Assembly (NCBI RefSeq): GCF_003008595.1
Contig: NZ_CP027669.1
Span: 3,162,001 to 3,226,000 of the forward strand
From: Simplicispira suum
Lineage (GTDB): Bacteria; Pseudomonadota; Gammaproteobacteria; Burkholderiales; Burkholderiaceae_C
Direction: 5' to 3'
DNA: 64,000 bases
The position numbers were made by a program, and so were the translations under genes. The notes beneath the pieces were generated by a model. It saw only the letters and a list, made by a program, of their open reading frames with translations, was not told where the DNA came from and searched no databases. Shown here piece by piece: positions 4,368 through 62,506 of the stretch (its first letter is position 1; each line of letters opens with the position of its first letter).

Positions 4368-5528
4368 TCACGGTGTGACGTTGAATTGTGCTTGGCGCTG
4401 AGCAATCAACCCGACGACTTGGTCAACATCGTCGAGCGTATTGAACACCCCAAACGATATCCTCACACCACCGCGCTCCGGCGATACGCGAACATGGTGC
4501 TGGGCAAAGTGGTTGACCCACTTGGCAACAGGCAAGTCGAGTACGTAAATGTGTGCCCGCTCTGTGCGCTTCCTTGGACCGACCACCGCCACACCCAGCT
4601 CATCCAGTTTCTCGAGCAAATGGTCCCCCAAGGACAACATGTGCGCTTCAATCTGAACGGGGTCCAAGCGGAGAATGAAATCCACTGACCGGCTCAATGC
4701 ATGCAAGTCGGGCAGGTTGAAGTTGCCAAATTCGAACCGCCCCGCATCGCGCCTCAACATCAAGTCCTCAGGTCGCGCGACGTAGTCGCTGGGCGGATTT
4801 TCCAAGCTGCTCATGGCCACGTAGGCTGGCTGAAGCTCTTGCAAGTCTTCCCTTACGAACAACAAGCCCAGGCCTTGTGGCACCAACAAGCCTTTGTGGC
4901 ACCCGGCCGCAAGCACAGAAACGCCCATGGCCTTGACGTCGACCGGCAACACGCCAATGGATTGCATGACGTCCACAACCAGGTAGATACCTGCCTTGGC
5001 ACACAGTCGACCAATGCTGGCGATGTCGTGCCGCTGCCCCGCATGGAAGGTCACGTGCGACAGCGAAATGACCCGAGTCGATTCGTCAATGTGGGACGCA
5101 AACGTATCGGCATTGGCGACCTGAGCATCTTGCAGCTTGAGAAACCGGACATTCACGCCTTTGCGCTTGAGGTTCAGCCACGCATAAGCGTTGTTGGGGT
5201 GGTCGCCTTCGAGCATCAAGACCGTATCACCTGTCTTGAGCGGCACGGCGTTGGCTGCGATGTTCAAACCTTCTGAGGTGTTCTTGGTGAACGCGATTTC
5301 TGTGGGCCTGGCGTTCAGTAGCTTCGCAACCTTCGCTCGGGTCTCCTCGACACGAGCCATCCACACCGGCTTAGGCCCCGCCATCTGGTTACCCTCAACC
5401 AGAAACTGATTCAAGGCGTCACGAACACAGTTGGCGAGGGGCGTTTGGTGTGCAGAGTCCAAGTACAGGCAATGCTGCATCACGGGAAACTCGCTCCGAA
5501 TGGATGCTGAGTCAAAAGTGTGGGTCAT
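4368..5528 (-). CDS. Class V aminotransferase-fold PLP enzyme (cysteine desulfurase/lyase-like)
   Basis: A fold-type I PLP enzyme of the NifS/kynureninase branch, 386 residues. The Schiff-base lysine is probably K212 (AAGCHKGLLVPQG). D186 and Q189 in VVDVMQSIG fit the cofactor-binding Asp and Gln, and R-I-S-F near the C-terminus is the usual substrate-carboxylate region. The family includes desulfurases, cysteine-sulfoxide lyases and isopenicillin-N epimerase-like enzymes, so the reaction cannot be fixed. It is the last gene of the minus-strand operon after two amino-acid ABC importers, so action on the imported compound is a reasonable inference. AGAGAAG precedes the ATG. Confidence 0.75.
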   Translation of the reverse strand: MTHTFDSASIRSEFPVMQHCLYLDSAHQTPLANCVRDALNQFLVEGNQMAGPKPVWMARVEETRAKVAKLLNARPTEIAFTKNTSEGLNIAANAVPLKTGDTVLMLEGDHPNNAYAWLNLKRKGVNVRFLKLQDAQVANADTFASHIDESTRVISLSHVTFHAGQRHDIASIGRLCAKAGIYLVVDVMQSIGVLPVDVKAMGVSVLAAGCHKGLLVPQGLGLLFVREDLQELQPAYVAMSSLENPPSDYVARPEDLMLRRDAGRFEFGNFNLPDLHALSRSVDFILRLDPVQIEAHMLSLGDHLLEKLDELGVAVVGPRKRTERAHIYVLDLPVAKWVNHFAQHHVRVSPERGGVRISFGVFNTLDDVDQVVGLIAQRQAQFNVTP

Positions 5529-5589
5529 GGTCTTCTCTGGTCGAATGAGGCCGGCAACTTGGAACGGGCATGTGACTGGCGTGTGTTGC

Positions 5590-6942
5590 TCAATGCAACT
5601 TGATGCGCGAGCCCCCGGACGGCATGAGACATCTGGCCAAGGTTTGCAATGTCACGCGCCTCCATCCATGCAGCGTGACTTCATGTGACTTGTACATGAG
5701 CCAATACATGGTCTTGGCGAACAAGCCCTCAATGAACATGCTGCGCCCCACCAGCCCGCCCATCAGGCTGCCAATGGTGCTGAACTTCCCCAAGGAGATA
5801 AGTGAGCCGAAATCTCGATACTTGTAAGGAGGTATCGCCTGGCCTTGGAGATGCAGGGGAAGATTGAGGGCAAGAAACGCGGCCTGCTGGTGTGCAGCCT
5901 GCGCGCGGGGTGGGACAACTCCATGACCGCCTGGTATCGGGCATGCCGCGCAATCGCCCATTGCAAAGATGGAAGGGTCCAGCGTGGTCTGCAAGCTGGG
6001 TTGAACAACCAATTGATTCAGGTGGTTGGTTTCCAATCCGGCAAGGGTCTTCAAGAAGCTTGGAGCGCGCACGCCCGCCGCCCAGACCGTGATGTCCGAC
6101 GGGATGCTCGAACCGTCGGACAACTGAACCGCTGTGCAGGTCACAGCAGAGACTTTCGCAGAAACATGCACCTGCACGCCCTGGTCAGTCAGGAGCCTGT
6201 GAGCAGCCTCGGAGAGGCGGGGCGGCAGCGCAGACAACACACGGTCCGTCGCCTCGACCACATGAACCTCAAGGGCGTCCGAACCCACAGAAGACGGAGT
6301 GTGACCATGGCCAAGCACTTCTCGCCCAGTTCGAAGCAGCTCTGCCGCCAACTCAACCCCGGTTGCACCTGCGCCAATGATGCAGATACGGAGTCGTCGA
6401 ACTTGTCCGGATTGGGATTGGCGTGATTGTTCACGGAAGCACGCGTTCAACAACTTGCGATTGAACTTGGCCGCATCGCATGTGCACTCCAGTTTCAGCG
6501 CATGCTCCTTCACCCCCGGCGTTCCAAAGTCATTGCTTTGGCTGCCGACGGCCAGCACCAGGGTGTCGTAGCCAAAGGTCCGAGCTGGCGTGATTTCCTC
6601 TCCGTCCGAATCAACGAACGGCGCGATGCTCACCTCTCGACTCTCACGATTCAGACCAGTCATCTCGCCCATGCGGTAGGCAAAGCCATTGTTTCGGGCG
6701 TGTGCCAGGAAACCCACTTCGTGCCCGCCAACGTCCATGCTGCCGGCAGCGATTTCATGAAGCTTGGGCTTCCATATGTGGGAGCGGGCCTTGTCAATCA
6801 AGGTGACTTCAAACTCAGCAGAACGGCCCAGCTTTGTCGCAAGCTCCAACCCGGCCGCCCCGCCGCCCACAATGACCACCCGATGTCGCTGCGCTCGGTC
6901 GGTGGACCGCAACCGCCTGGAGAACAAACTGAGGGCGTTCAT
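5590..6942 (-). CDS. ndh: Type II NADH dehydrogenase (NDH-2), FAD-dependent
   Basis: NDH-2 is a peripheral membrane flavoprotein that passes electrons from NADH to quinone without pumping protons. The 450-residue protein has an FAD Rossmann motif (VVIVGGGAAGLELA, residues 22-35), a second NADH-binding motif (CIIGAGATGVELAAELL, about 187-203) and the C-terminal FAD motif (IFAMGDCAACP, Asp330). The C-terminal segment with GSLMGGLVGRSMFIEGLFAK matches the membrane-anchoring part of the family. AGGAGC precedes the ATG. It lies in the transport/catabolic operon, where it could reoxidise NADH from the two dehydrogenases at the operon start. Confidence 0.85.
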   Translation of the reverse strand: MNALSLFSRRLRSTDRAQRHRVVIVGGGAAGLELATKLGRSAEFEVTLIDKARSHIWKPKLHEIAAGSMDVGGHEVGFLAHARNNGFAYRMGEMTGLNRESREVSIAPFVDSDGEEITPARTFGYDTLVLAVGSQSNDFGTPGVKEHALKLECTCDAAKFNRKLLNACFREQSRQSQSGQVRRLRICIIGAGATGVELAAELLRTGREVLGHGHTPSSVGSDALEVHVVEATDRVLSALPPRLSEAAHRLLTDQGVQVHVSAKVSAVTCTAVQLSDGSSIPSDITVWAAGVRAPSFLKTLAGLETNHLNQLVVQPSLQTTLDPSIFAMGDCAACPIPGGHGVVPPRAQAAHQQAAFLALNLPLHLQGQAIPPYKYRDFGSLISLGKFSTIGSLMGGLVGRSMFIEGLFAKTMYWLMYKSHEVTLHGWRRVTLQTLARCLMPSGGSRIKLH

Positions 6943-7163
6943 GTTTGCTCCTAGTTGTAGCCAAGAATGGCGACGTCCCGAAGGTCTGACTCCCTATCGA
7001 AGCCAATTGCCCACGAGGCGTCAGAACAGCTGGTCGTTCCGGCTGTCGATAACGGGTGGACTGCCTGAGGATGGCACTCACTTGCGGTGAATTCCGGGCG
7101 AAAAGGGCGCACCGAACCCTCCTCGGCAATGAGGATGCATGCAGATTGGTTGTTCATGGTGGT
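6943..7163. other. Gap between ABC permease and ndh; doubtful small ORF
   Basis: A 68-codon minus-strand frame (7157-6951) fills this gap. It has no visible Shine-Dalgarno, no recognisable domain and a composition like translated non-coding DNA. The ndh ribosome-binding site (AGGAGC) lies at the gap's downstream edge. An internal promoter is possible but not evident. Confidence 0.3.
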
Positions 7164-7826
7164 TTAGCTGCGCAGCTTTCGCTCAAGAAAACCGGCCAAC
7201 AGCGTGAGTGGGTAACAAATGGCGAAGAAAACAAACAGCACAGCGCAGTAAATTTCGACCGCATGTGCATCGGTGCTGACATAGGCCAGGCGCTCAATCA
7301 TCTGCCTCGCGGACCCCAGCAGGTCTGTCACCCCGACCACCGAGGTCAAGGCGCTTGCCTGGATAAGGACGGTCAGCTGCCCGACATATGGCGGAAGGAA
7401 TCGCCGCACCGCCTGCGGCATGACAGCGAACACCAGCGCTTGAACTTTGCTCAAACCAAGGGCCCGTGCCGCCTCGGTCTGGCGGGTCGATATGGACTTC
7501 AAGGCCCCGCGAGCTGTTTCTGCGATGTTGGCCCCACCCCAAACCGCCAAGCCCAAGACCGATGCGGTGATGGGGCCCGTGGATATACCAACATGTGGCA
7601 GCGCAAAGAAGACAAAGAGCAAGGTGATGAGTGAGGGGACGCCCCTGAAAATGTCTATGTAGAGACGCACCACCACCTGCACCCAGGTGCGTGTACTCGC
7701 CGACAACGCGCCGATGAAGACACCAATCACTGTGGCCAACAGCGTGGTCAGCAAGGACACCCAAAGGGTGACGTACAGACCACTGAGCATGTGAGAGGCA
7801 ACCGGACCAATCCACGGCTGATTCAT
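7164..7826 (-). CDS. Polar amino acid ABC transporter permease (system 2, second permease)
   Basis: HisM/GlnP-type membrane subunit of 220 residues with about five hydrophobic segments. The EAA loop contacting the ATPase is visible as EAARALGLSKVQALVFAVMP. Its start overlaps the end of the preceding permease (ATGA, 7823-7826), so the two are coupled and form a heterodimeric pore. With the SBP at 8533 and the ATPase at 9465 it completes the second importer of the operon. Confidence 0.88.
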   Translation of the reverse strand: MNQPWIGPVASHMLSGLYVTLWVSLLTTLLATVIGVFIGALSASTRTWVQVVVRLYIDIFRGVPSLITLLFVFFALPHVGISTGPITASVLGLAVWGGANIAETARGALKSISTRQTEAARALGLSKVQALVFAVMPQAVRRFLPPYVGQLTVLIQASALTSVVGVTDLLGSARQMIERLAYVSTDAHAVEIYCAVLFVFFAICYPLTLLAGFLERKLRS

Positions 7827-8485
7827 TTGGAAACTCCCAAACCCGGCACGGCCACGAATCGCTCAAAACGACGCGACGCGAATGCAATGATGTTGGACAC
7901 CACGAGATAGGCCAGCGCCGCCATTCCAAACACCTCGAAGACTTTGAAGGTGTCGGCCACCATGCGGTTCGCCACGTAGGTCAACTCCTGGTACCCCACC
8001 GCAATCATGAAAGACGAGGAGCGAAACTGCGTGATAGCCATCGTGGTGGCAGCGGGAATCGAGGTGCGTATGCCAAGTGGTAACGTCACATCCAGGAATG
8101 CACGACTTGCAGACATGCCAAGTGCCCGCGCAGCCACAACCTCGTTGGGATTCACGGCTCCATATCCTGCCCTAAATATCTCCGTGTGGTATCCCGCCCC
8201 CCACAGACCCAGCGCCAGCCATGAGGTTTCAAAGGGCGTCAGCTTGATGCCCACCTCAGGCAGCGCGAAGTACAACATCACAACCTGAACCAGCAAAGGC
8301 GTGCAGCGGAAGAAGGTCGCAAAAATCGCGATGCCTTGGCTCAAAAGAGGGACCCTGGCGTGGCGTGCAGCGCCAAAAATCATTCCCAGCGTGATGCCCA
8401 TGGTGATTCCGATACCGCTTATGAGCAGGGTACGGCCCAGCCCTTCAAGCAACATCAGCAAATCGGCTACAAAGTTTGTCGGCAT
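7823..8485 (-). CDS. Polar amino acid ABC transporter permease (system 2, first permease)
   Basis: HisQ/GlnP-type permease of 220 residues. The N-terminal region around LGRTLLISGIGITMGITLGM is the first transmembrane segment, and the EAA-like loop reads VAARALGMSASRAFLDVTLP. GGGAAA precedes the ATG. It lies downstream of the matching substrate-binding protein and is coupled by a 4-nt overlap to the next permease. Confidence 0.88.
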   Translation of the reverse strand: MPTNFVADLLMLLEGLGRTLLISGIGITMGITLGMIFGAARHARVPLLSQGIAIFATFFRCTPLLVQVVMLYFALPEVGIKLTPFETSWLALGLWGAGYHTEIFRAGYGAVNPNEVVAARALGMSASRAFLDVTLPLGIRTSIPAATTMAITQFRSSSFMIAVGYQELTYVANRMVADTFKVFEVFGMAALAYLVVSNIIAFASRRFERFVAVPGLGVSK

Positions 8486-8532
8486 CGAATTTCCCGCATG
8501 GAGAGTCGCACAAGCCAGCCAGGGTCAGCGTG

Positions 8533-9405
8533 TCACTTCAAACACTCAAGGGCACCACTCTTCGAGTAGTCCAGCTTGACGTTCGGCCCTGGCACAACAG
8601 CGCGGTATTTCGCAACAAAAGTCGGGTCCTTGACCTCCTGAGAGAAGGCCTTGAAGAAGGCGTCCTCAGCGCGCATTTGCTCCAGCACTGCGTTGACCCA
8701 GTCGAGCATCGGCTTGTTGCCCTTCTTGACTCCAACGCCCTGGACCGCCGACGCAGCCAAGGTGCCCACGACCTTGAAGTTCTTCTGCATTTGCGTGAAG
8801 TTGAAGCCGTAGACGTCGATGTAGGCAAACGCATCCGCGCGCCCCTGGCTCAGCATGGTCGAGCCCTCGGCGGCGGTCTGAACCGTTGTCAAATTGGCTT
8901 GTGGGTAGCACTTCTGCAACCAGGTTTGGTAGGTGCTCCCGGTTGGCGTAATGACGGTCTTGCCCGTCAAATCTGCATAGTCAGCGACCTTGGAATCCTT
9001 GGGCACGATGAGCTGCAAATTGCTCACCCAAATCGGACTGGAATAGTCCAGCTGCTCGGCCCTCGCAGGAGTGAACGCCAGAGACGCGAGAATCAAGTCA
9101 ATTTTTCCAGACTGCAAGAACGGAATACGGTTGCTGTCGTTCACGCACTGCGTCCGCAACCCCTCACCGGTGCCGAGCGCAGCCTCTGCAATCCGCTTCA
9201 CCATGGTGTACTCATAGCCAGCGGGTTTGCCGTCAATGCCAACGTAGCCGGCGGGCGGATAAGCGCAGTTGATTCCCACGGTCAAGAACCCGGCAGCTTT
9301 GACCTCCGCAGGCAGCGGGACATCCACCTTGGGAGCTGCGGCATGCGCGGCACAGGTGCCGGCGACAAGGGCAACGGCAAAAGCAGCAGACAGAACTTGT
9401 TTCAT
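8533..9405 (-). CDS. Periplasmic amino acid-binding protein (SBP family 3), system 2
   Basis: Solute-binding protein of a polar amino acid importer. I chose the ATG at 9405 because it begins a clear Sec signal peptide (MKQVLSAAFAVALVAGTCA, cleavage near AHA-AP) and follows AGGAAG; a frame extends 21 codons further upstream but lacks a leader. The mature part shows the family-3 pattern: LTVGINCAYPPAGYVG, IPFLQSGKIDLILASLAFTPARAEQLDYS and the hinge region ADLTGKTVITPTGSTYQ. The segment FTPARAEQ, where amino acid binders often have T-x-x-R, suggests an alpha-amino-acid carboxylate ligand. Confidence 0.9.
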   Translation of the reverse strand: MKQVLSAAFAVALVAGTCAAHAAAPKVDVPLPAEVKAAGFLTVGINCAYPPAGYVGIDGKPAGYEYTMVKRIAEAALGTGEGLRTQCVNDSNRIPFLQSGKIDLILASLAFTPARAEQLDYSSPIWVSNLQLIVPKDSKVADYADLTGKTVITPTGSTYQTWLQKCYPQANLTTVQTAAEGSTMLSQGRADAFAYIDVYGFNFTQMQKNFKVVGTLAASAVQGVGVKKGNKPMLDWVNAVLEQMRAEDAFFKAFSQEVKDPTFVAKYRAVVPGPNVKLDYSKSGALECLK

Positions 9406-9464
9406 TTTCGCTTCCTGGTATTGAGAGGTTGGGGAGGGCGTGAACGGACCAGCGGGGCGGTCCG

Positions 9465-10238
9465 TCAATGCTTTTTCAAGCGGGAGAGAAACTGTTTGGT
9501 GCGTTCGTGTTGGGGGTGGTCGAGCACCTCAGACGGGGGACCCTGCTCGACAATGTTTCCGCCTGCCATCAACACAACTCTGTCACCGACTTCGCGGGCG
9601 AAGCCCATCTCATGCGTGACCACGAGCATCGTCATGCCCGACTTCGCCAGGTCTTTCATGACCGCAAGCACTTCCCCCACGAGTTCGGGGTCGAGCGCGG
9701 AGGTCGTCTCGTCAAACAGCATCACGTGGGGTTGCATCATGAGCGCACGTGCAATGGCCACGCGTTGCTGTTGCCCCCCGGAGAGCTGGTCCGGATAGTG
9801 CTCAGCCTTTTCTGCCAAACCCACTTTGCGCAGATAGTCGAGCGCCCGACTTTCAGCTTGGTCAACTGGCTCCTTAAGGACCCGCCTTGGCGCCAGCGTC
9901 AGGTTCTTCAAAACCGTCAGGTGCGGAAAAAGGTAGTAGTGCTGAAACACCATCCCGACCCGCTGACGAATCTTGTTCTCATCAAAGCTGCCCGACGTGA
10001 TGTCGTCACCTTCAAGAAGAATTTGCCCAGCATCCACCCGTTGCAGCAAGTTGGCACACCTCAGTAGTGAGCTCTTGCCACCGCCACTGGGCCCGACAAT
10101 CACGACGACTTCGCCGCGCTGAACCTCCAGGTCGACCCCCTTGAGAACGACGTTTCCACCGTAAGAGAGGTGAATATCCCTCATCTCGATAATCGGCCGC
10201 TCACCGCGAGATGCTCCCAGCTTGCCTGTTGCACTCAT
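9465..10238 (-). CDS. Polar amino acid ABC transporter ATPase (system 2)
   Basis: HisP/GlnQ-type ATPase of about 257 residues. Walker A is GPSGGGKSS, signature LSGGQQQ, Walker [14 protein letters not shown]-loop VVTHEM. Start choice: the ATG at 10238 follows GAGAGTGGA and gives normal length; an alternative ATG at 10256 is 11 nt beyond the upstream stop. The longer open frame to 10409 overlaps the neighbouring ATPase and is not credible. The gene sits directly after the ATPase of system 1, so the two nucleotide-binding genes are adjacent. Confidence 0.9.
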
Positions 10239-10266
10239 GTCGTTGTCCACTCTCATAGATAGGGGC

Positions 10267-11076
10267 CTAGCCGCGGTGCACGTTCGACTGGAACCGTTTG
10301 ACGAAGGTTTGAAAACGCTCCGTCTTGGGGTTTTCGAACACCTCAGCCGGAGGACCGTCTTCGATGATGGCGCCCTGATAAAAGAACAAGAGCCGGTCGG
10401 CCACATCACGGGCGAACTGCATCTCGTGGGTGACGATAATCATGGTCATCCCATCGTTGCTGAGGTCGCGCAGTGTTTTGAGAACCTCGTCAACCAACTC
10501 GGGGTCGAGTGCCGAGGTCACCTCATCGAAAAGCATGACCTTGGGCCTCATGGCGAGTGCTCGCGCAATGGCCACCCGCTGTTGCTGACCACCCGAGAGC
10601 TGCGAAGGAAAATGGTCGGCCTTGTCTGCCAGGCCCACCTTGCCCAACAACTTGACGGCATGCGCCCGGGCTTCCTCCTTCGATTCCTTGTTGACCAGCA
10701 TCGGGCCCATCATCACGTTCTCGATGGCCGTTTTATGGGGGAACAGGTTGTAATTCTGAAACACCATCCCCGCTTTAGTGCGCAGGTGGGCAATGTCGGC
10801 CTCTGACTGACGCCGGCGCGAACCGCCGGCACTGCCGACATAGCCAACCCCCTCGCCATCAACCAGAATCTGACCCGCCTGGAACTCTTCCAGGAAGTTG
10901 ATGCACCTGAGCAGGGTCGACTTTCCGGAGCCACTCGGCCCCACCAAGACAACCACTTCACCCTCCTTCACATCAAACGAGATGTTCTTGAGCACCTGGT
11001 TATTGCCAAAGCTCTTGGAGACGTCTTTCACCTCAATCATGGTTCGACGAGGTTCACGCGAATGGGCAAGGTTCAT
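10267..11076 (-). CDS. Polar amino acid ABC transporter ATPase (system 1)
   Basis: 269-residue ATPase: Walker [11 protein letters not shown]-loop [11 protein letters not shown], signature LSGGQQQ, Walker [14 protein letters not shown]-loop VTHEM. A short Gly/Ser/Arg-rich insert ([16 protein letters not shown]) lies between Walker A and the Q-loop, where the system 2 ATPase has none. A strong GAGGAAAG precedes the ATG. It lies 9 nt after its permease gene. Confidence 0.92.
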
Positions 11077-11085
11077 CTTCTTTCC

Positions 11086-11727
11086 TCAGGAGGTCTTGAG
11101 CCGGCGCTGCAGGTAGGTCGCGCCAAGCGATATGGGGTAGCAGATGCAGAAGTAGATGAGCATCACCGCGAAGAAAATCTCAAATGCGGCCAGGGTTCGC
11201 TCCACCACTTCGCGAGAGGCGTACGTCAACTCCCACACACCGACAATGGAGGCATAGGAAGTGCTCTTGACGGCGATGGATGCAGTTGTCACAAGCGGTG
11301 GCAGCGCCAGGCGCATGCCCAGTGGGAGCTGGATTTGCATCAATATCTGGTGCTTGCGCAGGCCAATCGCCATGCCCGCCTCCACCGTTGTTTTTGGTAC
11401 CGCCAAGATGGCACCGCGAACAATGTCTGCAACAAAAGCCGCGAAATAGATGACCAGGGCGATGGTGGCCGCCACGTAATTGGGTGCGTTCACACCCAGT
11501 CGCGGCAAGCCAAAGTACGCAATGAATATCAGCACCAGAACCGGCACACCGCGAACCACATAGACATACACGGCGAGAGAGGAGCGAACCATCCAGCCCC
11601 CCAATGCTGCATACACGCCCAGCGCTGTGCCCAGAATCGAGCTGAGAAAAACCGTCGCTACGGCCATCTCAAGCGTCACCACTGCCGCTTTGAGCAGGTA
11701 CCCGAGGTTGAGAAATGCAACGTCCAT
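11086..11727 (-). CDS. Polar amino acid ABC transporter permease (system 1, second permease)
   Basis: 213-residue HisM/GlnP-type permease. The EAA loop is EAGMAIGLRKHQILMQIQLP, and YVYVVRGVPVLVLIFI fits the conserved second membrane region. It follows the other system 1 permease by 8 nt and precedes the system 1 ATPase. Confidence 0.88.
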   Translation of the reverse strand: MDVAFLNLGYLLKAAVVTLEMAVATVFLSSILGTALGVYAALGGWMVRSSLAVYVYVVRGVPVLVLIFIAYFGLPRLGVNAPNYVAATIALVIYFAAFVADIVRGAILAVPKTTVEAGMAIGLRKHQILMQIQLPLGMRLALPPLVTTASIAVKSTSYASIVGVWELTYASREVVERTLAAFEIFFAVMLIYFCICYPISLGATYLQRRLKTS

Positions 11728-11735
11728 GGCAGTCT

Positions 11736-12389
11736 TCAGCGCCGCTTGGCAGCAGGGGTTTCGAGCCAGCGGAAAACGCCGCTGGCCAAGGTCGTGAGAA
11801 CAAGGTAGAACGCTGCCACCATGATGAAAACCTCATAAGAGGAAGCGGTCCGCTCCATGATGAGCTTGCCGCTCAGCGTCAGGTCAACCACACCAATACC
11901 GGCCACCAAAGACGTGTCTTTGATGAGAACGACGACCTGGTTTCCGATGGCGGGAACCACTTTGAGGATGGCCTGGGGGAGCACAACGCGATAGAACACG
12001 CCTGAGGGCTTCAAGCCGATGGCGCGACCGGCATCCCATTGTGTTTTGGGAACCGCATCAACGCCGCCCCGAAAGACCTCGGCGATGTACGCGGTGTGCT
12101 GCACGGCAATCGCAATGGCTCCGCAGTAGAGCCCATCCAGGCGGGAGCCCAACAGCGGGGCACCGTAATAGACCACTAGGATGAGCAGGAAGGTCGGGAC
12201 GTTTCGAAGAAACTCGATGCCCGCATACGCCGGCACCCAAACCAAACGCTGCGAGGACGTGCGGGCGAGGACCAAGACCATGCCCAGGGCAATTGATGCT
12301 GGCAAACACATGGCCACCAAAGCCAGTGTCACCAGGAAGCCGTCGAGAAACTCAGGCAACCACCCGGAAGCCAGATTGAGCCAGTTCAT
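11736..12389 (-). CDS. Polar amino acid ABC transporter permease (system 1, first permease)
   Basis: 217-residue HisQ-type permease with the typical G-I-E-F-L-R-N-V-P segment and EAA-like loop DAGRAIGLKPSGVFYRVVLP. AAGGACC precedes the ATG. It lies just downstream of the system 1 solute-binding protein. Confidence 0.88.
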   Translation of the reverse strand: MNWLNLASGWLPEFLDGFLVTLALVAMCLPASIALGMVLVLARTSSQRLVWVPAYAGIEFLRNVPTFLLILVVYYGAPLLGSRLDGLYCGAIAIAVQHTAYIAEVFRGGVDAVPKTQWDAGRAIGLKPSGVFYRVVLPQAILKVVPAIGNQVVVLIKDTSLVAGIGVVDLTLSGKLIMERTASSYEVFIMVAAFYLVLTTLASGVFRWLETPAAKRR

Positions 12390-12421
12390 GCCTTGGTCCT
12401 TCGCCTGTCGTCTACCTAGAC

Positions 12422-13255
12422 TTACTTGTTGCCAACGTAGTATTTGGCATTCAGCGGCGCTTTACCGAACCAGGTTTTGTAGCTGGCGGCATAGTCGTTG
12501 AACATGGAGCCGGCACGCATCTCGTTCACATAGGTGTCCAGGGCCAGCCACCACTTGAAGTCACCTTGCTTCATGTAAATGGCGTTGTTGGTGACAGCGG
12601 TCATGCGCTCTTCCAGCACACGGACATCCTTGTTCTGCGAGGCGTACCACAGCGCGACCGGCTCATCGAGCTGCGCAGCGTCCACACGGCCACCTTTGAC
12701 TGCGGTGAACTGCGCGCCAATCGAGTCCAGCGTGGTGGTCTTCGCCTTGGGGAAGAACTGATTGGCACGGTCGGCCTGAACCGGCGTCGACAGGATGGCC
12801 GTGGTCACCTTCTCGGTGTTCAGGTCAGAAAACTTCTTGAACTTCGAGTCAGCTTTCACGATGACCACAATGGACGAGTCGATGTAGCCACGCGTGAAGG
12901 CCACACGGGCCACACGGTCCGGCAACACGGTGGCCACGTGGATACCAAAGTCCACCTTGCCGCTGTTGACGTTCTCCCAGCGAGCTGCGGAACTCTGCTT
13001 CACAAACTCGATGTGCTTGGGGTCATCGCTGCCGAACAGGCCTTTGGCAATGAGCTTGGCCACATCGATGTCGAAACCAACGTGGTCACCCTTTTCGTTG
13101 ATGAACCCAAACGGCGGGGACTCGCTGCTCACGCCCACGATGACTTTGCCGCGCGCCAGCACTTCATCCAACTTGGATTTTTCCTGGGCAACAGCTGCTT
13201 GGGACATCAGCAAACCTGCAGCGACAGCGCAGATGGCGTTAAGTATTTTTTTCAT
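12422..13255 (-). CDS. Periplasmic amino acid-binding protein (SBP family 3), system 1
   Basis: 277 residues with a Sec leader (MKKILNAICAVAAGLLMSQ, cleavage near AVA-QE). The mature part has the family-3 core: VIVGVSSESPPFGFINEKG, GFDIDVAKLIAKGL and KVDFGIHVATVLPDRVARV. It differs clearly from the system 2 protein, so the two importers are not a recent duplication and may take up different but related compounds. AAGGTG precedes the ATG. Confidence 0.9.
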   Translation of the reverse strand: MKKILNAICAVAAGLLMSQAAVAQEKSKLDEVLARGKVIVGVSSESPPFGFINEKGDHVGFDIDVAKLIAKGLFGSDDPKHIEFVKQSSAARWENVNSGKVDFGIHVATVLPDRVARVAFTRGYIDSSIVVIVKADSKFKKFSDLNTEKVTTAILSTPVQADRANQFFPKAKTTTLDSIGAQFTAVKGGRVDAAQLDEPVALWYASQNKDVRVLEERMTAVTNNAIYMKQGDFKWWLALDTYVNEMRAGSMFNDYAASYKTWFGKAPLNAKYYVGNK

Positions 13256-13297
13256 GGAAGCACCTTGTAGTGAAGTGAATGGATGGAAAGGACTGCC

Positions 13298-14296
13298 CTA
13301 CGAAACCAATGCTGGCTTGACTACCGCCCGCAGCATCTCTGCAAACGCCACGTGGATTTCCAGATGGAGACCATCCACGTTGGCATCAACAACGTTTTGA
13401 ACCGAATTGATAAGGCCGATATCGACCCCTCGGTTCAGCAATTGGCGCTCCAACTCAGGAGCATTCAGCAGGCGGACGTCTTTGCGCCTCGCAGCCATGG
13501 CGGCCGCAATCGCATTGCAGCCCCAGTTGGAACAAGCGGCGGTCACCAGCACATCGCAGGGTGTCACGGCCGCTATGGTGCCGCCAAATTTCACGTGCTC
13601 CGCAACAGCGGCAGAGACCACGCCCATGCCGATTTCGTTGCCACCGTCGCCGACCGCCACCGTCGGGACACCCTGCGCGATGGCTTCTTCAAAAAGCACA
13701 TCGATGCGGGCTCGCCCCATGCCGTAGTCAATGGCACGCATGCTGTAGTAAACGCCATCCTTGGCCCGCCCCACCCGCTCGGTGGAGAAGAACAGGCTCG
13801 GCTGGTACCGCGCCAGCAGTGCCTTGGCCTCGGAGGGTGCATCCGCATCACTCGTCGTGAATGGGAGGAGGGTTACCACCGCCAGGCTGCCGTCCTTGCA
13901 AGCGATTTGCGCCTGTTCAAACGGCAGAACTGTCAACCCAGCACTGGTCAGAATGGCTCGCATGCCAGGCAGGAGCGTTTCTTCTGCTAACACGACGCAA
14001 TGCACCCGCTTGGCCAACGACAGCGCGCGCGCGATGATGGCAGCTCCGGCCGGACCATCGTTCTCACCAATCTCCGTCGAAATCCACGCCCGAGAGACTG
14101 ACCCGGTGGTGACAAACACGGTGGCGCCATCTGGCACGGCCAGAAGCGCGTCAGCGGCTGCGCCCACCAGTGGACCGCCTTGCCGTGCCCTGGCTGCGGC
14201 ATACAAGTGCTCAACCCCTCGCCCACCGATGTCCAGGCTTACCAGTTTGTCCAGACGTTCGTCCATCGCCGCAATGATTTTTGGGTCAACGATCAT
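13298..14296 (-). CDS. Stand-alone D-glutamate-cyclase-like (DUF4392) protein, paralogue 1
   Basis: 332 residues matching the C-terminal domain of D-glutamate cyclase (DUF4392/GLUCM-like): ERVGRAKDGVYYSMR (about 173-187), VAVGDGGNEIGMG (213-225) and CSNWGCNAIAAA further on. The human enzyme turns D-glutamate into 5-oxo-D-proline and has a DUF1445 domain, which is absent here. The N-terminal part has GENDGPAGAA (77-86), shared with the paralogue at 15590. Its ATG overlaps the SelA-like gene stop (ATGA). The function is not established; a lactam-forming or lactam-opening step on an amino acid is a guess from the family. Confidence 0.75.
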   Translation of the reverse strand: MIVDPKIIAAMDERLDKLVSLDIGGRGVEHLYAAARARQGGPLVGAAADALLAVPDGATVFVTTGSVSRAWISTEIGENDGPAGAAIIARALSLAKRVHCVVLAEETLLPGMRAILTSAGLTVLPFEQAQIACKDGSLAVVTLLPFTTSDADAPSEAKALLARYQPSLFFSTERVGRAKDGVYYSMRAIDYGMGRARIDVLFEEAIAQGVPTVAVGDGGNEIGMGVVSAAVAEHVKFGGTIAAVTPCDVLVTAACSNWGCNAIAAAMAARRKDVRLLNAPELERQLLNRGVDIGLINSVQNVVDANVDGLHLEIHVAFAEMLRAVVKPALVS

Positions 14297-15576
14297 TTCG
14301 CCTCCCCCAGAATCAAGGTAGCCAGCGCCGACGGCGTCCGGACCATCTGTGCAATCTTCGTGAAGGATGCGTCCACCGCATCCACCACGCTACCCATGCC
14401 CCCAGCGCGCTCAATGGCCCCATGTGTGGGCTTGAGACGAACTGAAACCCGGGCGCCTGGCTGTCCGTGCGTGTTCACCGTCAAAATGCCGTGGTCACGC
14501 AGCAAGACCATACCGAGCGCCGATGTGATTTCTGCCGGTACAAGCTCGGTGTTTTCGGGTTTCAGACCCGCTCTCCTCAGGACTTCGGTCAGCGTCAGGT
14601 CTTCTTCAATCATGGGGCCGAGGTCGCTCTTGGCGACAAGTGCCGTTCCCAGACGCTCTTGCAGCGCTTGGGCCAGCTTCTGCCCACTTTGCGCTTCATC
14701 CAGCAAGTCCTGAGGCGAAAAGCGCTGAATCGAACGCAAGGCGCTCGCCGCGATGGGCGCCCGGGCCTCCATCCCGTACTCGGACGCCTTGGCCGCCACA
14801 CGCACCACCAGGTCAGGGCGGCCCACCAGAAGACCAGACCGAGGGCCGGACAGGCCGGCTTTGTCGCAGTTGGTGATGGCCAGGTCGCCACCCAGCTTCA
14901 GACTCAGAACACCACCGTGGAGCACGGGGCGCATCCGTGCGCCGTAAGCCTCATCCAGCAAAACATTCGCTTTCCTGGCCTTGGCCAATGCAGCGACGTC
15001 CATCGCCACCTCGTCGGCCAGGAATTCCAGGCTGCTCGTGACGGTGGTGATGACCACCAGGGCGGGCTCGTTTTCTTCGAGCGCCTTCACCCAATCCTTG
15101 TCGCCCTGCACTTCAATCAGCTCGACCCTGGCGATGCCACAACCGCGAATGACCGACGCATGTGAACGACCACCAGGCGGCACCACGGACACGACCGGCT
15201 TGCCACCAGCCAGCGCAGCGATGGTGGCGATGATGCCGGCGCTCGTGCGATTGACAGGCGCCACCGCATCATCCGGTTGACCACCCATGTGTTCGATGGC
15301 GGCCAACCGCAGTTCCTCGGCAAACAGCCCCGGACCCACCCACTCCTCGCAGTGGGTGTTGAGGTCTTCGACCTTCAGGGGAAAATCCCGTTGGTTTCCG
15401 GTAAAGACACCGATGGACTGGGGTCCCAATCTGCGGACACGGTCTGCGGCCACTTTTTGCCCCTGCCGAAGGCGGCGCGCCTCGTCAACACTGGATTGAA
15501 TGATGGCGCCACGGGCAAACCCGACGATGGGGTCGAGGATGTTGCCGAACGAGTCGCTTGTTTTTTTCGCCTGCAT
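14293..15576 (-). CDS. SelA/DgaE-like PLP-dependent enzyme
   Basis: 427 residues from the ATG at 15576, which follows TGGAG; the open frame extends to 15741 but that part overlaps the upstream gene. Fold-type I PLP features: LLDEAYGARM with Asp208, and the probable Schiff-base lysine K239 in TNCDKAGLSGPRSGLLVG. The latter resembles the lysine region of SelA and D-glucosaminate-6-phosphate ammonia-lyase. The conserved selenocysteine genes are not nearby, so an elimination or lyase role on a small amino acid derivative is more likely than tRNA-Sec synthesis. It is sandwiched between two DUF4392 genes. Confidence 0.65.
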   Translation of the reverse strand: MQAKKTSDSFGNILDPIVGFARGAIIQSSVDEARRLRQGQKVAADRVRRLGPQSIGVFTGNQRDFPLKVEDLNTHCEEWVGPGLFAEELRLAAIEHMGGQPDDAVAPVNRTSAGIIATIAALAGGKPVVSVVPPGGRSHASVIRGCGIARVELIEVQGDKDWVKALEENEPALVVITTVTSSLEFLADEVAMDVAALAKARKANVLLDEAYGARMRPVLHGGVLSLKLGGDLAITNCDKAGLSGPRSGLLVGRPDLVVRVAAKASEYGMEARAPIAASALRSIQRFSPQDLLDEAQSGQKLAQALQERLGTALVAKSDLGPMIEEDLTLTEVLRRAGLKPENTELVPAEITSALGMVLLRDHGILTVNTHGQPGARVSVRLKPTHGAIERAGGMGSVVDAVDASFTKIAQMVRTPSALATLILGEAK

Positions 15577-15589
15577 TTTTTGCTCCAGG

Positions 15590-16669
15590 TCACACGGCTG
15601 ATGCCGTGCGAATAGAAATTCCGGCGACCTCATTGAGCAGCCGCACAAAGGCCAGATGCCCCGCAAAGTCGATGCCATCCACCACCATGGACTGCTTGGA
15701 AGTCGCACCGTCTCGTGCACCAGCGGCAACCGTGACGGCAATCAGTTCGTGCTCCGTGTCTGCGTCATGCAGCACATCGGGGTTGGACAGGAGCACCGCC
15801 AATGCGGCGTTGACCGCACAAGCACCCCAGTTGGAAACCGCAGCGCTGACCGTGACGTCGGTCGCCACCACCGTCACGACACCCGAGGCATGGCCGGCCA
15901 TAGAGCGACCACGCAGGGGCAGGACATCACGGATGGCCTCGCGCATGGCGCCAAAGCCCACCTCGTTGCCGCCATCCCCAATGCCGACCGTCAAAACGCC
16001 CGCCTCGGCCGCGTGGTAGGCCAGCAAATAGACGTACCCGACAGCCAGTGGGTCACGGCAGTCACCCCGGACGCCGTGGAACTGGCCTTCCACATTGGGC
16101 CCATCACGCTCGACAAACACCACGGCGGTTGGTGACCAGCGCTCAATGAGCTCCCGTGACTTGGTCTGACCCCGATTCAGCCCGATGGGGAATGACTCGA
16201 CCGCCACCGGCGTGAAACTGCGCCCAGGTTGCTTGGCAGCCCATACCGCAAGCTTGGAGTTGATGAGTTCAACTGCGGCAACCACCGGCGGCAAGTGAGC
16301 GTCTTCAGTTACGAAAACCACTTTGGCCTGCAGCCCCTTGACGATGCCGGTCGCCAGCGCCGCGGCACCAACAGGACCGTCGGTTTCCCCCAGCGGGAGG
16401 TTGGGCGCCACACCCGCACCCGTGGCAATGAACACGGTGTCACCAGGCTTGACCCGCTCCTTGAGCGCGGACGCCGCGACCATCGAAAGGGGCGCGCCAT
16501 GGTGAGCCCGACACACTTCATACATCGGCACCACGATGCCGGGAGGAAGTCCCCCCGTCAGGGGGCGAATCTCCAACGTCATCAGTCGGTCGATTCGGTT
16601 GCCCGACTCGACCTGTTCCGACGTCAAGACGTCTTTCCAGGCGGCGGCTGCAATGGACGAAGTGTGCAC
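15590..16669 (-). CDS. Stand-alone D-glutamate-cyclase-like (DUF4392) protein, paralogue 2
   Basis: 359 residues from a GTG preceded by AGGGAGCC. It has the same family landmarks as the paralogue at 13298: GETDGPVGAAALA (94-106), ERDGPNVEGQFHGVRG, VGIGDGGNEVGFG (228-240) and VSNWGACAVNAAL. The two differ widely outside the motifs, so the pair is probably an old duplication that may act as a heteromer or on consecutive steps. A DUF1445 domain is again missing. Confidence 0.75.
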   Translation of the reverse strand: MHTSSIAAAAWKDVLTSEQVESGNRIDRLMTLEIRPLTGGLPPGIVVPMYEVCRAHHGAPLSMVAASALKERVKPGDTVFIATGAGVAPNLPLGETDGPVGAAALATGIVKGLQAKVVFVTEDAHLPPVVAAVELINSKLAVWAAKQPGRSFTPVAVESFPIGLNRGQTKSRELIERWSPTAVVFVERDGPNVEGQFHGVRGDCRDPLAVGYVYLLAYHAAEAGVLTVGIGDGGNEVGFGAMREAIRDVLPLRGRSMAGHASGVVTVVATDVTVSAAVSNWGACAVNAALAVLLSNPDVLHDADTEHELIAVTVAAGARDGATSKQSMVVDGIDFAGHLAFVRLLNEVAGISIRTASAV

Positions 16670-16684
16670 GTTGGCTCCCTGCTC

Positions 16685-18184
16685 TCAGATGCCGAAAGTC
16701 ACGCTTTTGCGGCTCGTGTAGCTTTCCAGCGCGCCTTCAATCGAATACTCCGCGCCGATGCCGCTTTGTTTGGCGCCACCGTAAGACATGCCCGGAATCT
16801 GGCCGCCCGCACGGTTGACCTGTATCCAACCGGCATCCAGCTGCTCGGTCGCGCGCATCGCGGCGTTGATGTCATTGGTGAACACGTAGGCAGCCAGGCC
16901 GTAATGCGTGTCGTTGGCCATCGCCAGCACTTCGCTTTCCTCGTCCCATGGAATCGCTACCAATACGGGGCCAAAGACTTCCTCGCGAGCGATACGCCAA
17001 CTGTTGTCTACGCCACTGAAGATGACCGGGGTCGGGAAGTAGCCCTTGGCCTCCCCGGCTGGCGGAGGCAGGGCGCCCACTTCCACCTTCGCGCCTGCGT
17101 CCATGGCTTCCTTGATGAAGCCACACACTGCGTTGTAGCGCTCTGCATTGATGACCGCACCAATGTCCGTCGTTTCGTCGAGCGCATCGCCCACTTTCAG
17201 TGCATTCACCTTCTGCACCAGCTTGGGCATCACCTTGTCCCAGATGGAGCGGTGAACAAAAAGACGCGAGCCGGCCGTGCACGATTGGCCCTGGCGGGCA
17301 AAACGCATGGCAGCGATGATGTTGTTGACCGTGGTGTCCAACTGGGCATCGACGCCTGCGTCCGCATACACGATGCAGGGGCTCTTGCCACCCAACTCCA
17401 GGGTCAGGTGACCGATGCGGTCTGCCACGGCATGAGCGACCTTCTGCCCCACCTCATGTGAGCCCGTGAACGACACCTTCGCCACATCGGCGTGCTGGCT
17501 CAATGGCGCGCCAGCCTCCAGGCCCTCGCCGGTCACCACGTTGAACACGCCGGCCGGGAAGAGGTCTGCAGCCAACTCCGCGATTCGAATGACGGCCAGG
17601 GGCGCGTCTTCCGCAGGCTTGAGCACCAAGGTGTTGCCCGTGCCCAGCGACATGCCGATTTTCACGGCTGCCAGCACCAGCGGCGAGTTCCAGGGAATGA
17701 TGGCACCCACGACACCAAACGGCTCACGGGTGGTGTAGCTGAAGAGGCCAGGACCCAAGGGAAGAGTCTCCCCCTTTTGCTCGGCAATCACGCCGCCGTA
17801 GTACCGCAGCACCTCTGCCGTGCTGGCCACTTCCGGTCGGCTTTGGGTGCGCAAGGCGTTGCCGGTCTCCGCCGCAAGAATTTTGGCGATTTCGTCGGCG
17901 TTCGCCGTGATGCGGTTGCCGAACTCGATGAGCAACGCACCCCGCTCGCGGGCGGCCTTGCGGCGCCACTTGGGAAATGCCGCCTTGGCAGCCGCCACCG
18001 CGAGGTCGATGTCTCGCGCATCGGCTGCACCAACGTCGGCGATGTGGTCAAGGCGGCAGGGGTTCACCACCGCCAGGGTCTTGCCACCAACGGGCTTGCA
18101 CCACTCGCCATTGATGAAGTTGCCAGCCAGGCCAGCGGTCGGCAGCTTGATGCCGCTGTAGGTTGTACTGAGAGTTTGGTTCAC
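16685..18184 (-). CDS. NAD(P)-dependent aldehyde dehydrogenase
   Basis: 499 residues, normal length. The catalytic Cys lies in RQGQSCTAGSRLFVH and the general-base Glu in LTLELGGKSPC; the cofactor region has IIPWNSPLVLAAVKI and SFTGSHEVGQKVA. The GTG at 18184 has only a weak Shine-Dalgarno. It is the second gene of the operon, after the beta-hydroxyacid dehydrogenase, so the two probably oxidise an alcohol and then an aldehyde, or handle related semialdehydes. The substrate cannot be read from sequence alone. Confidence 0.88.
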   Translation of the reverse strand: MNQTLSTTYSGIKLPTAGLAGNFINGEWCKPVGGKTLAVVNPCRLDHIADVGAADARDIDLAVAAAKAAFPKWRRKAARERGALLIEFGNRITANADEIAKILAAETGNALRTQSRPEVASTAEVLRYYGGVIAEQKGETLPLGPGLFSYTTREPFGVVGAIIPWNSPLVLAAVKIGMSLGTGNTLVLKPAEDAPLAVIRIAELAADLFPAGVFNVVTGEGLEAGAPLSQHADVAKVSFTGSHEVGQKVAHAVADRIGHLTLELGGKSPCIVYADAGVDAQLDTTVNNIIAAMRFARQGQSCTAGSRLFVHRSIWDKVMPKLVQKVNALKVGDALDETTDIGAVINAERYNAVCGFIKEAMDAGAKVEVGALPPPAGEAKGYFPTPVIFSGVDNSWRIAREEVFGPVLVAIPWDEESEVLAMANDTHYGLAAYVFTNDINAAMRATEQLDAGWIQVNRAGGQIPGMSYGGAKQSGIGAEYSIEGALESYTSRKSVTFGI

Positions 18185-18211
18185 TTTTATCTCACTGAGA
18201 ATGAAATGCGT

Positions 18212-19099
18212 TCAGGCGGCGTTCTGCAGGCGCACGTCCAGCAGCTCTTCGTAGAGTTCACAGATGCTGGTGGAGTCTTTGCCACCCAGACCCTTGGCAC
18301 GGGCCGCGTTGTAGGTTTGCTTGACCAGCTGACCCAGCGGCATGGGGTAGTTGGAGAACTCGTCCAGGCACAGGCCGATGTCTTTGTGCATCAGGTCAAT
18401 CGCAAAGAATGCGGGACGCTCGGCTGTGAACAGGGTCTTCTGAAACCAGTCCAACATCTTGCTGCCCGCCATGCCAGCGGTCAGCACATCGCACAACACT
18501 TCCAGGTTGCCGCCTGCTTTGACGCTTGCAGCCAGAACCTCGCCCAGGGCAACGGTGTTGATGGCGACGACCAGGTTGTGGCTGAGCTTGGTCAGTTGGC
18601 CGGCACCGATGGGGCCGCAGTGAACAATGCGACCGGCCAGGTGTTCAAGCATGGGCTTCACGCTCTCCAGCACATCTGCGCTGCCACCCACCATCAACAC
18701 CAGTTTGCCGTTGGCAGCACCTGCCACGCCGCCGCTGACCGGCGAATCCAGAAATTCCACCCCATGCTGCGCCGCAGCCTTGGCCAGTTCCTTGGTGGTC
18801 TCAGGGTCAACGGTGCTGAAGTCGATGAGCACACCACCCTTCTTGACCGCCCCCAGCACGCCATCGGTACCTGCCACAGCGGCGCGGAGGATGGCGGGCG
18901 TCGGGAGGCTGAACATCACAGCATCAGCACCTTCGGCCGCAGCCCGAGGACTGACGGCAGAGGCAGCGCCTTTTGCCACCAGCTCTTTGACTGCGGCTTC
19001 GTTCGGGTCGAACACAGTGACCGTGAAACCTGCCGCGACCAGACGGGCAGCCATCTGCGCCCCCATCTTGCCCACACCAATAAATGCAACCTTTTCCAT
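18212..19099 (-). CDS. Beta-hydroxyacid dehydrogenase (3-hydroxyisobutyrate/tartronate semialdehyde type)
   Basis: 295 residues. N-terminal Rossmann motif VAFIGVGKMGAQMAARL, substrate motif DSPVSGGVAGA and the catalytic lysine in GAGQLTKLSHNLVVA are those of the MmsB/GarR family. It is the first gene of the long minus-strand operon, with AGGAGCG before its ATG, and is divergent from the LysR gene. Family members reversibly oxidise beta-hydroxyacids to semialdehydes; the following aldehyde dehydrogenase fits that chemistry. Confidence 0.88.
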   Translation of the reverse strand: MEKVAFIGVGKMGAQMAARLVAAGFTVTVFDPNEAAVKELVAKGAASAVSPRAAAEGADAVMFSLPTPAILRAAVAGTDGVLGAVKKGGVLIDFSTVDPETTKELAKAAAQHGVEFLDSPVSGGVAGAANGKLVLMVGGSADVLESVKPMLEHLAGRIVHCGPIGAGQLTKLSHNLVVAINTVALGEVLAASVKAGGNLEVLCDVLTAGMAGSKMLDWFQKTLFTAERPAFFAIDLMHKDIGLCLDEFSNYPMPLGQLVKQTYNAARAKGLGGKDSTSICELYEELLDVRLQNAA

Positions 19100-19260: not shown

Positions 19261-19300
19261 GGTCTTTCCACTCTAGGGTTTACCCTAGTTTTGGAAGACC
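19261..19300. promoter_or_regulatory. 40-bp near-perfect palindrome, candidate LysR operator
   Basis: The core CTAGGGTTTACCCTAG (19273-19288) has perfect 7-bp arms around TT. Outside it GGTCTTTCCA (19261-19270) pairs with TGGAAGACC (19292-19300) with one unpaired base. It lies 45 nt before the LysR start and about 160 nt before the divergent operon start. The position fits an autoregulatory operator; binding is inference. Confidence 0.6.
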
Positions 19301-59225: not shown

Positions 59226-59320
59226 GGCAGGTTCAGGCAGGACAAAAGAAAAAGGGGAAAGTGGGCGTTTGCAGTAACGCGAGCGGTCCAAACGCAAAAA
59301 TTTCAGTGTTTTAGGCCTCT

Positions 59321-59355
59321 AGCGCTTGCTGGTAAAGCGCCAGCAGCTATCAAAA
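59321..59355. repeat. Dispersed hairpin repeat, copy B
   Basis: Begins AGCGCTTGCTGGTAAAGCGC and ends CAGCAGCTATCAAAA; GCTGG and CCAGC can pair. Lies between gabD and the GntR gene. Confidence 0.6.
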
Positions 59356-59395
59356 GTGTTGCAACAATACCGCCCGCGAAGCACGAATCACGGCA

Positions 59396-60070: not shown

Positions 60071-60138
60071 GGGCAAACAAGCAGGCGGGGCGGGGTGCGT
60101 AAGTCACTATGGTACGCACCCGCGCCGCAGCACTGCGC

Positions 60139-62469: not shown

Positions 62470-62506
62470 GGCAAGCGGTGCGTGGGTGGGCTGGGCAAGA
62501 GGGGCA

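Follow-up and report, generated by a model that had tools for sequence, protein, structure and literature searches.

A rare and mobile operon of Simplicispira suum, probably for degradation of an amino-acid-like compound, with a constant aldehyde dehydrogenase, SelA-like and DUF4392 core

The subject of this report is an operon of fifteen minus-strand genes in Simplicispira suum, found in a stretch of 64,000 nucleotides (C1:3162001-3226000, hereafter the window) of the 4.15-Mb genome. This operon probably allows some soil, root-nodule and marine bacteria to degrade an amino-acid-like compound. Its constant unit is an aldehyde dehydrogenase (ALDH), a SelA-like pyridoxal phosphate (PLP) enzyme and a protein of the DUF4392 family, here DUF4392a. 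Comparison of loci establishes this core together with two accessory gene sets that do not mix, and from the genes we infer a plausible chemistry for the entry and core steps. The best explanation of the whole, to which we give a little less than an even chance, is a mobile catabolic module in which a single core is served by exchangeable entry enzymes, the window carrying its type I form. Held slightly more tentatively is the proposal that this undescribed core degrades one unusual amino dicarboxylate both in soil and in the sea, derived on land from a hydroxy amino acid and in the ocean from a trimethylated amino compound. As judged from its genes, the operon appears to be an amino-acid catabolic unit built on two enzyme families without settled function.

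Distribution and composition of the module

The module is rare, mobile and widely shared. Among 399 genomes of the order, that of S. suum alone carries the close SelA-like gene, and six others hold relatives of 28-31% identity (E below 1e-30); in the family the gene was found in 2 of 399 genomes, its own included, at E 1e-60, and the 4 other genomes from its genus are all without it. Two short conserved peptides, scanned over 84,980 species genomes (one per species), led to 63 distinct loci with a SelA-like gene, by a procedure that would miss relatives without either peptide. Judged by record title, the hosts of these loci are Variovorax, Paracidovorax, Pseudorhodoferax, Paraburkholderia, Caballeronia, Pandoraea, Trinickia, Bradyrhizobium, Sinorhizobium, Shinella and Pantoea, along with Mycobacterium, Saccharopolyspora, many Roseobacter-group bacteria and Acidimicrobiia. 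The SelA-like gene occurs in 18 plasmid records, 13 of them predicted to be conjugative and 14 from Bradyrhizobium or Sinorhizobium (12 with Glycine as source). Four plasmid loci were opened; two are type I (a form seen on a soybean-rhizobium plasmid) and two type II, in the sense defined below.

The ALDH/SelA-like/DUF4392a unit is the constant part of these loci. Of the 62 same-strand pairs of SelA-like and DUF4392a genes that could be scored, 59 have a gap of -29 to +8 bases and three, in L072, L090 and L093, one of 75-134 bases; L035 is counted twice, and L084 and L092 hold no scorable DUF4392a. The ALDH gene lies upstream. Among the 41 pairs that do not belong to type I, 29 show a 4-base overlap of the ALDH and SelA-like genes, and in type I a second DUF4392 gene, DUF4392b, and often an MFS gene sit between these two. 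ALDH is found in every typed locus (58/58; 20/20 type I and 38/38 type II). The order of the core is shared by relatives in Proteobacteria and Actinomycetota, at identities of 50-82% for the SelA-like protein, 51-86% for DUF4392a and 61-90% for ALDH, and the pairwise correlation of the distances of these three proteins over 60 loci is 0.91-0.93, an agreement that shared descent alone may give.

Loci were assigned to type I when they held DUF4392b and a beta-hydroxyacid dehydrogenase of the HIBDH family, and to type II when they held MttB or a class III aminotransferase, with identity thresholds set after the matches had been viewed. By this definition 20 of the 63 loci are type I, the kind that includes the window, 38 are type II, none is both, and five are neither (L049, L052, L060, L079 and L089, several of which are short). 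Type II hosts are mostly marine by record title. Among genes outside the definition, LysR (at least 41% identity) is found in 20/20 type I against 0/38 type II loci, whereas DMGDH1 is found in 0/20 against 35/38, the class V enzyme '13' in 0/20 against 31/38 and LysR2 in 0/20 against 30/38. HIBDH, which is part of the type I definition, is in all 20 type I loci and DUF4392b in none of the 38 type II loci. The remaining type II genes are MttB (34/38), the class III aminotransferase (31/38), DMGDH2 (24/38), a 3-hydroxyisobutyrate-dehydrogenase-like gene (16/38) and a TRAP carrier (6/38); the type II domains are MTTB (PF06253), DAO with GCV_T (two), Aminotran_3, Aminotran_5 and DctP/DctM, and solved relatives of the aminotransferase include 4-aminobutyrate, putrescine and polyamine transaminases.

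These counts redraw the picture given by the first-pass annotation of the window. Conservation of the DUF4392b-SelA-DUF4392a trio, which that annotation had set in advance as its test, is found in 20 of the 63 loci and contiguously in 19 (in L067, DUF4392b is upstream and divergent), and the unit that recurs is ALDH-SelA-DUF4392a. Its description of an operon built on two DUF4392 proteins and two importers stands for DUF4392a as a core gene, while DUF4392b, the importers, the oxidoreductase (6/20 type I loci, with identity of at least 40%) and the class V enzyme (7/20) are type I accessories, as is the MFS carrier (10/20). Of the dehydrogenases and transporters, HIBDH and ALDH are present in 20/20 type I loci, and homologues of the importer binding proteins in 9/20 (importer 2) and 6/20 (importer 1).

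In a tree of the SelA-like proteins, type I, the window and one partial locus lie on one side of a branch with support 82, with Mycobacterium and Saccharopolyspora inside, a placement that suggests transfer between phyla. Type II does not fall strictly on one side: there are 4 label changes, caused by short or atypical loci within it. Positions at least 95% conserved in both versions carry the same rather than a different residue at 120 versus 2 sites in the SelA-like protein, 97 versus 3 in DUF4392a and 204 versus 9 in ALDH (21 type I rows with the window and 40-41 rows from the other side, including L052, L060 and L079; L049, L089 and the second L035 SelA were dropped). This near identity argues for the same reaction at the PLP and DUF4392 steps in both versions.

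The MttB family is represented by 2 to 8 homologues in each of the 18 type II genomes searched, where identity to the Ruegeria cluster copy is 58-100% for the best homologue and at most 50% for the others, save one partial match at 64%; the cluster's copy therefore looks specialised. The profile of MttB (PF06253) had no match in the genome of the window, in a search whose controls matched 1 of 14 genomes (Methanosarcina acetivorans), so the window is type I and cannot run the type II entry. Marine Roseobacter glycine betaine demethylation is reported to use MtgB, an MttB-family enzyme (PMC12478193). Type II loci resemble that system in their MttB-family gene and in their FAD-GcvT genes, one or two in number and similar to dimethylglycine/sarcosine dehydrogenases, and differ from it in that MttB is joined to a class III aminotransferase, ALDH, the SelA-like gene and DUF4392. 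Glycine betaine catabolism as the role of the whole operon was rejected for the window, whose genome lacks MttB, and is unlikely for type II, with further MttB copies in the 18 of 38 genomes searched.

Families of the core enzymes

The SelA-like protein has a single NCBIfam match at E 0.001, to TIGR03576/MJ0158 (UPF0425), at 195.3 bits and hence under the curated cut-off of 304.45; its closest solved fold is MJ0158 (2aeu), public since 2005. By its score it is homologous to the TIGR03576/MJ0158 family yet outside the curated family. Several database records name the gene selenocysteine synthase, and it shares with SelA a fold-type I PLP architecture and a weak sequence match to 8uzw (E 5.6e-6), but its operon context in the window is amino-acid catabolism and no SelA equivalog model matched it in NCBIfam at E 0.001. 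TIGR03576 was rejected as a marker of co-occurrence over the phylum because it is too loose: 184 of 398 genomes match at E 0.001 and none above the cut-off, the window's own match alone being strong (E 1.1e-57; the next is 3.7e-13). Distant SelA-like genes of the same order (L103-L108) were likewise set aside as module members and treated as another subfamily. The five that were aligned are 27-29% identical and, at 37 positions that are invariant in 30 core rows, all five share a different residue or a gap; a TctC-type gene adjoins or lies near five of the six (L107 is without it), and a BLAST comparison of the stretches retrieved around them showed no DUF4392 at its chosen threshold.

PF14336, the DUF4392 profile, has just two matches in the genome of the window, DUF4392a and DUF4392b, none in 14 control genomes, and matches in 10 of 398 genomes across the phylum, its own included. 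Six acidic metal ligands are conserved in 38/38 DUF4392 rows, and in 15/15 among the DUF4392b rows, and the metal site is complete in both proteins of the window, as in TON_0340 of Thermococcus (4dwz, 5gl2). TON_0340 is reported as a Mn-dependent phosphatase of very low activity, and homologues of DUF4392 are described in organisms ranging from archaea to humans (PMC5132392). The mammalian D-glutamate cyclase (DGLUCY, 9030617O03Rik) shares the DUF4392 domain and possibly an acidic amino acid as substrate; it is a DUF1445-DUF4392 fusion (PMC5339696), whereas the DUF4392 proteins of the window stand alone, occur twice and are coupled to a PLP enzyme. The absence of DUF1445 remarked on in the first-pass annotation extends to the whole genome, where the profile (PF07286) has 0 matches (the control search matched 1 of 14 genomes, Bacillus subtilis). 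An unexpected setting for the domain was met in the same order, where L174:5680-16401 (minus strand) is an intact open reading frame (ORF) of 3573 amino acids with two DUF4392 matches and a DUF4781 match.

The best NCBIfam matches of ALDH are betaine-, hydroxymuconate- and amino-aldehyde enzymes, with no curated cut-off reached among the matches listed; the betaine-aldehyde dehydrogenase equivalog TIGR01804, with a cut-off of 668.6, gives 424 bits for the window protein and 403.6 for one type II ALDH. Cys302 is conserved in 63/63 rows. Betaine-aldehyde enzymes have an aromatic box at ALDH positions 167 and 174, in place of which the enzyme carries Ser167 and Val174, so that a trimethylammonium (quaternary) aldehyde is an unlikely substrate. 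For HIBDH the best NCBIfam match is TIGR01505 (230.2 bits, cut-off 340.75) and the best solved relative 3cky, a 2-hydroxymethyl glutarate dehydrogenase (E 8.8e-54).

The open-licence literature, covered mostly at the level of titles and abstracts, yielded no description of this gene set, a result that does not establish that the set is unpublished; the earlier suggestion of an operon dedicated to the catabolism of an unusual amino compound is supported. DUF4392 was mentioned in two papers, MJ0158 and the NCBI product names in none, and UPF0425, TIGR03576 and PF14336 were not among the matches listed (30 of 59), which carried TON_0340 (2) or DGLUCY (28) only. If the proposed role is correct, two widespread orphan families, TON_0340/DUF4392 and MJ0158/TIGR03576, would gain their first physiological pathway; DUF4392 also forms the C-terminal half of a mitochondrial enzyme in humans. 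The steady pairing with ALDH and the two interchangeable entry sets narrow the possible chemistry, and soybean rhizobia, Ruegeria, Leisingera and Variovorax are organisms in which the compound could be named. Type II would add a marine quaternary-amine route, and on land copies are carried on soybean-rhizobium plasmids.

A proposed pathway and its competitors

In the proposed scheme, a hydroxy amino acid (R-CH2OH) would enter type I bacteria through the amino-acid ABC importers and be oxidised by HIBDH to the aldehyde R-CHO. In type II, a quaternary amine, R-CH2-N(CH3)3+, would lose its methyl groups to MttB and the dimethylglycine-dehydrogenase-like enzymes, and the class III aminotransferase would then yield the same or a closely related R-CHO; alternatively the aldehyde may come from the 3-hydroxyisobutyrate-dehydrogenase-like enzyme in conjunction with the TRAP importer. 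ALDH would convert R-CHO to R-COOH, which is taken to be a relative of glutamate or aspartate, an amino dicarboxylate with unusual stereochemistry or substitution. The SelA-like enzyme may bind its amine as an external aldimine and remove the alpha proton, with elimination or epimerisation to follow, while DUF4392a, a putative di-metal enzyme of the D-glutamate cyclase domain family, may use this acid too, perhaps in the opening or closure of a lactam ring. DUF4392b, met in type I only, may handle a second form of the acid, for example a ring or stereo form, and the products would join central metabolism at the level of glutamate or a 2-oxo acid. The replacement of HIBDH in type II by the N-demethylase and class III aminotransferase set suggests that HIBDH makes the aldehyde that enters the core, and the order given by the first-pass annotation, in which the PLP enzyme eliminates and the dehydrogenases finish, is for that reason not favoured.

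Ectoine-type degradation also proceeds through a class III aminotransferase and then an ALDH to an amino dicarboxylate; the module follows the same logic of amine to aldehyde to acid and adds the SelA-like and DUF4392 proteins. Ectoine hydrolase or deacetylase genes were not seen among the annotated neighbours, although no search was aimed at them. One Pseudorhodoferax strain has a second, minimal cluster, LysR-SelA-DUF4392a-TctC-type binding protein (L035:892-4571, the same as L109:12399-16755), which adjoins a complete type I operon and diverges from it; as it is without ALDH and has TctC, an imported carboxylate may be a direct substrate of the SelA-like and DUF4392a proteins. Three of the 63 loci, in different lineages, have glutamate enzymes downstream: NAD-dependent glutamate dehydrogenase (GDH; L048) and a glutamate-synthase domain (L049) directly after DUF4392a, and GDH in L040 3.3 kb further on, after importer 1. 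These neighbours fit an exit at glutamate or a 2-oxo acid. Candidate substrates that were weighed, with none decided, are trimethyllysine, trimethylornithine, homoserine, trimethylhomoserine, carnitine, beta-glutamate, 4-hydroxyglutamate and rhizobitoxine-like ethers; the D-amino acid, lactam or opine first suggested is unproven.

Several points weigh against this scheme. R is unnamed, and the course from substrate to product is deduced from the gene set; the importers, homologous to many amino-acid systems, leave the ligand unfixed. Residue 170 of ALDH, four residues past Asn166, is V in 21/21 type I rows and Q in 40 of the 41 other rows with a residue there, and position 458 is mostly R in type I and Q in the others. 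By ALDH numbering both positions presumably fall close to the substrate tunnel. The two types may therefore oxidise aldehydes that are similar without being identical, which counts against a strict one-compound reading. Glutamate enzymes are neighbours in just the three loci named, and a second Bradyrhizobium locus, L150 (B. elkanii), is without GDH. Two of the 38 type II loci have no scorable DUF4392a (L084; L092, cut by the contig end), the SelA-like frame of L093 is partial, and absences at a locus count as lower bounds because each locus was cut off at 10 kb flanks or at the end of its contig. The second-best structural neighbour of the SelA-like protein is a Thermotoga threonine aldolase.

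This last match helps the main rival, an unlikely alternative in which the SelA-like enzyme would be a retro-aldolase that cleaves a beta-hydroxy-alpha-amino acid to glycine and R-CHO, with ALDH forming R-COOH and the accessory sets acting downstream. HIBDH would then work on an omega-hydroxy acid in type I, and MttB, the demethylases and the class III aminotransferase of type II on an omega-betaine, for example gamma-butyrobetaine, as in the breakdown of 3-hydroxy-trimethyllysine. The overlap of the ALDH and SelA-like genes fits such a sequence, but DUF4392a would be left without a role. Use of D-glutamate or 5-oxo-D-proline in the style of the mammalian enzyme is a good deal less probable. 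It would suit the glutamate enzymes downstream of the core, and the type II TRAP binding protein has as its best solved relative 2pfy, a Bordetella receptor that we take to bind pyroglutamate, although that match is weak (E 5.4e-15); it requires neither the demethylation set nor HIBDH, and ALDH, as constant as the SelA-like protein, would be idle. The mouse DUF4392 protein is indeed reported as a D-glutamate cyclase (PMC5339696), but the characterised cyclase also bears DUF1445 (PMC5132392), and the absence of that domain from the genome makes simple use of D-glutamate or 5-oxoproline unlikely.

Least probable of all, and to our minds very doubtful, is a mosaic of independent transport, dehydrogenase and SelA/DUF4392 genes gathered by insertion sequences without a joint pathway. 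The operon does lie in a segment rich in insertion sequences between identical direct IS30-type copies, it is absent from the 4 congeners searched, and importers, MFS and class V genes vary among type I loci; set against this, the core genes adjoin one another and are syntenic across phyla, and the distances of the SelA-like, DUF4392a and ALDH proteins agree, with the same proviso about shared descent.

Layout and surroundings of the operon in the window

Every part named by the first-pass annotation is present where it was placed (ORF list and profile scans), in one minus-strand run with LysR divergent (Table 1).

Table 1. Genes of the operon and adjoining features, in window coordinates
Feature	Position	Strand	Basis
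LysR regulator, divergent	19345..20265	+	PF03466 + PF00126
Candidate operator between LysR and HIBDH, inverted repeat CTAGGG-TTTA-CCCTAG	19273..19288	.	sequence
Beta-hydroxyacid dehydrogenase (HIBDH family), putative type I entry enzyme	18212..19099	-	PF03446 + PF14833
Aldehyde dehydrogenase (ALDH), core gene	16685..18184	-	PF00171, 499.2 bits
DUF4392b (GLUCM-like_C), putative second metal enzyme, type I only	15590..16669	-	PF14336, 191.7 bits (cut-off 27.9)
SelA-like PLP enzyme (related to TIGR03576/MJ0158), core gene	14293..15576	-	
DUF4392a (GLUCM-like_C), core gene, 4-base overlap with SelA-like gene	13298..14296	-	PF14336, 217.8 bits
Importer 2 substrate-binding protein	12422..13255	-	PF00497
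Importer 2 permease	11736..12389	-	ORF; homologous region of B. elkanii plasmid annotated 'amino acid ABC transporter permease'
Importer 2 permease	11086..11727	-	ORF; homology to annotated B. elkanii plasmid region
Importer 2 ATP-binding protein	10267..11076	-	ORF; homology to annotated B. elkanii plasmid region
Importer 1 ATP-binding protein, start uncertain	9465..10250	-	ORF; homology
Importer 1 substrate-binding protein, start at internal ATG	8533..9405	-	PF00497
Importer 1 permease	7823..8485	-	ORF; homology to annotated genes
Importer 1 permease	7164..7826	-	PF00528, TIGR01726
FAD/NAD (pyridine-nucleotide-disulphide) oxidoreductase, NDH-2-like, type I accessory	5590..6942	-	PF07992
Class V aminotransferase-fold PLP protein, type I accessory	4368..5528	-	PF00266

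Importer 2 (10267-13255) and importer 1 (7164-10250) have four genes each, of which both binding proteins and one permease were profile-scanned and the other five named by homology to annotated genes. The ATP-binding protein of importer 1 is 72-73% identical to homologues in two Bradyrhizobium loci, one annotated as an amino acid ABC ATPase, and the nearest solved relatives of its substrate-binding protein, 2yjp and 1xt8, are amino-acid transporter binding proteins. Intergenic gaps from HIBDH through the last importer gene are -4 to +47 bases if the importer 1 binding protein is taken from 9465, and the preferred internal ATG at 9405 turns one of them into 59 bases. A gap of 221 bases precedes the oxidoreductase, which together with the class V gene may thus form a separate transcript. 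The names 'NDH-2' and 'class V aminotransferase' are generic, the best NCBIfam matches, TIGR03169 (130.3, cut-off 310) and TIGR01979 (150.6, cut-off 475.1), falling far short of their cut-offs. The SelA-like ORF as listed is overlong; close relatives begin at the codon starting at 15576 on the minus strand. The palindrome between LysR and HIBDH is a candidate LysR site, and among 17 loci examined a related GGGTTTnCCC motif is found in the same gap of the 4 nearest relatives (L032-L035) and in none of the other 13.

An IS30-type element brackets the operon in two identical direct copies, at 3147569-3148729 and 3183769-3184929 (the latter at 21769-22929 of the window), which are the sole two matches in the genome, and the segment of about 37 kb that they bound may be a composite transposon or island. 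IS5-, IS21- and IS3-type elements also flank the operon, the IS21-type stretch being single; these family names were read from ORFs, with a domain check for the IS30-type gene only. Near-identical IS3-type transposase ORFs, compared by eye, are found at 20807-21682 and 46816-47691 of the window.

The same segment holds an opine-oxidase-like operon (L173:5352-15535 together with window 21-1103), made up of a DAO oxidase, an FAD/SO_alpha_A3 protein, an Opp-type importer, an octopine-dehydrogenase-family protein and two LysR genes. In relatives the opine genes are not linked to the module, save for an oxidase pair near it in L054. The octopine-dehydrogenase-family gene (21-1103) was rejected as a conserved partner, with no hit inside any of the 68 loci scanned, as was the neighbouring oxidase pair (L173), with a related pair in that 1 locus of 68. 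Matches to the former were found in 10 of 20 type I genomes: one of 52% in Antarcticirhabdus, numbered on a different contig (at least 171 kb) from that of the operon (57.9 kb), five of 28-30% that cover most of the gene's length, and four short weak pieces.

In two type II plasmid loci (L152:9570-10439 and L153) a HalD-like dioxygenase gene adjoins an Opp importer. Elsewhere in the window, at 57735-63983, lies a second catabolic-looking cluster with ALDH, a TRAP binding protein and a malate/lactate-type dehydrogenase recognised by profile, and with a GntR-like and a DctM-like ORF recognised by eye.

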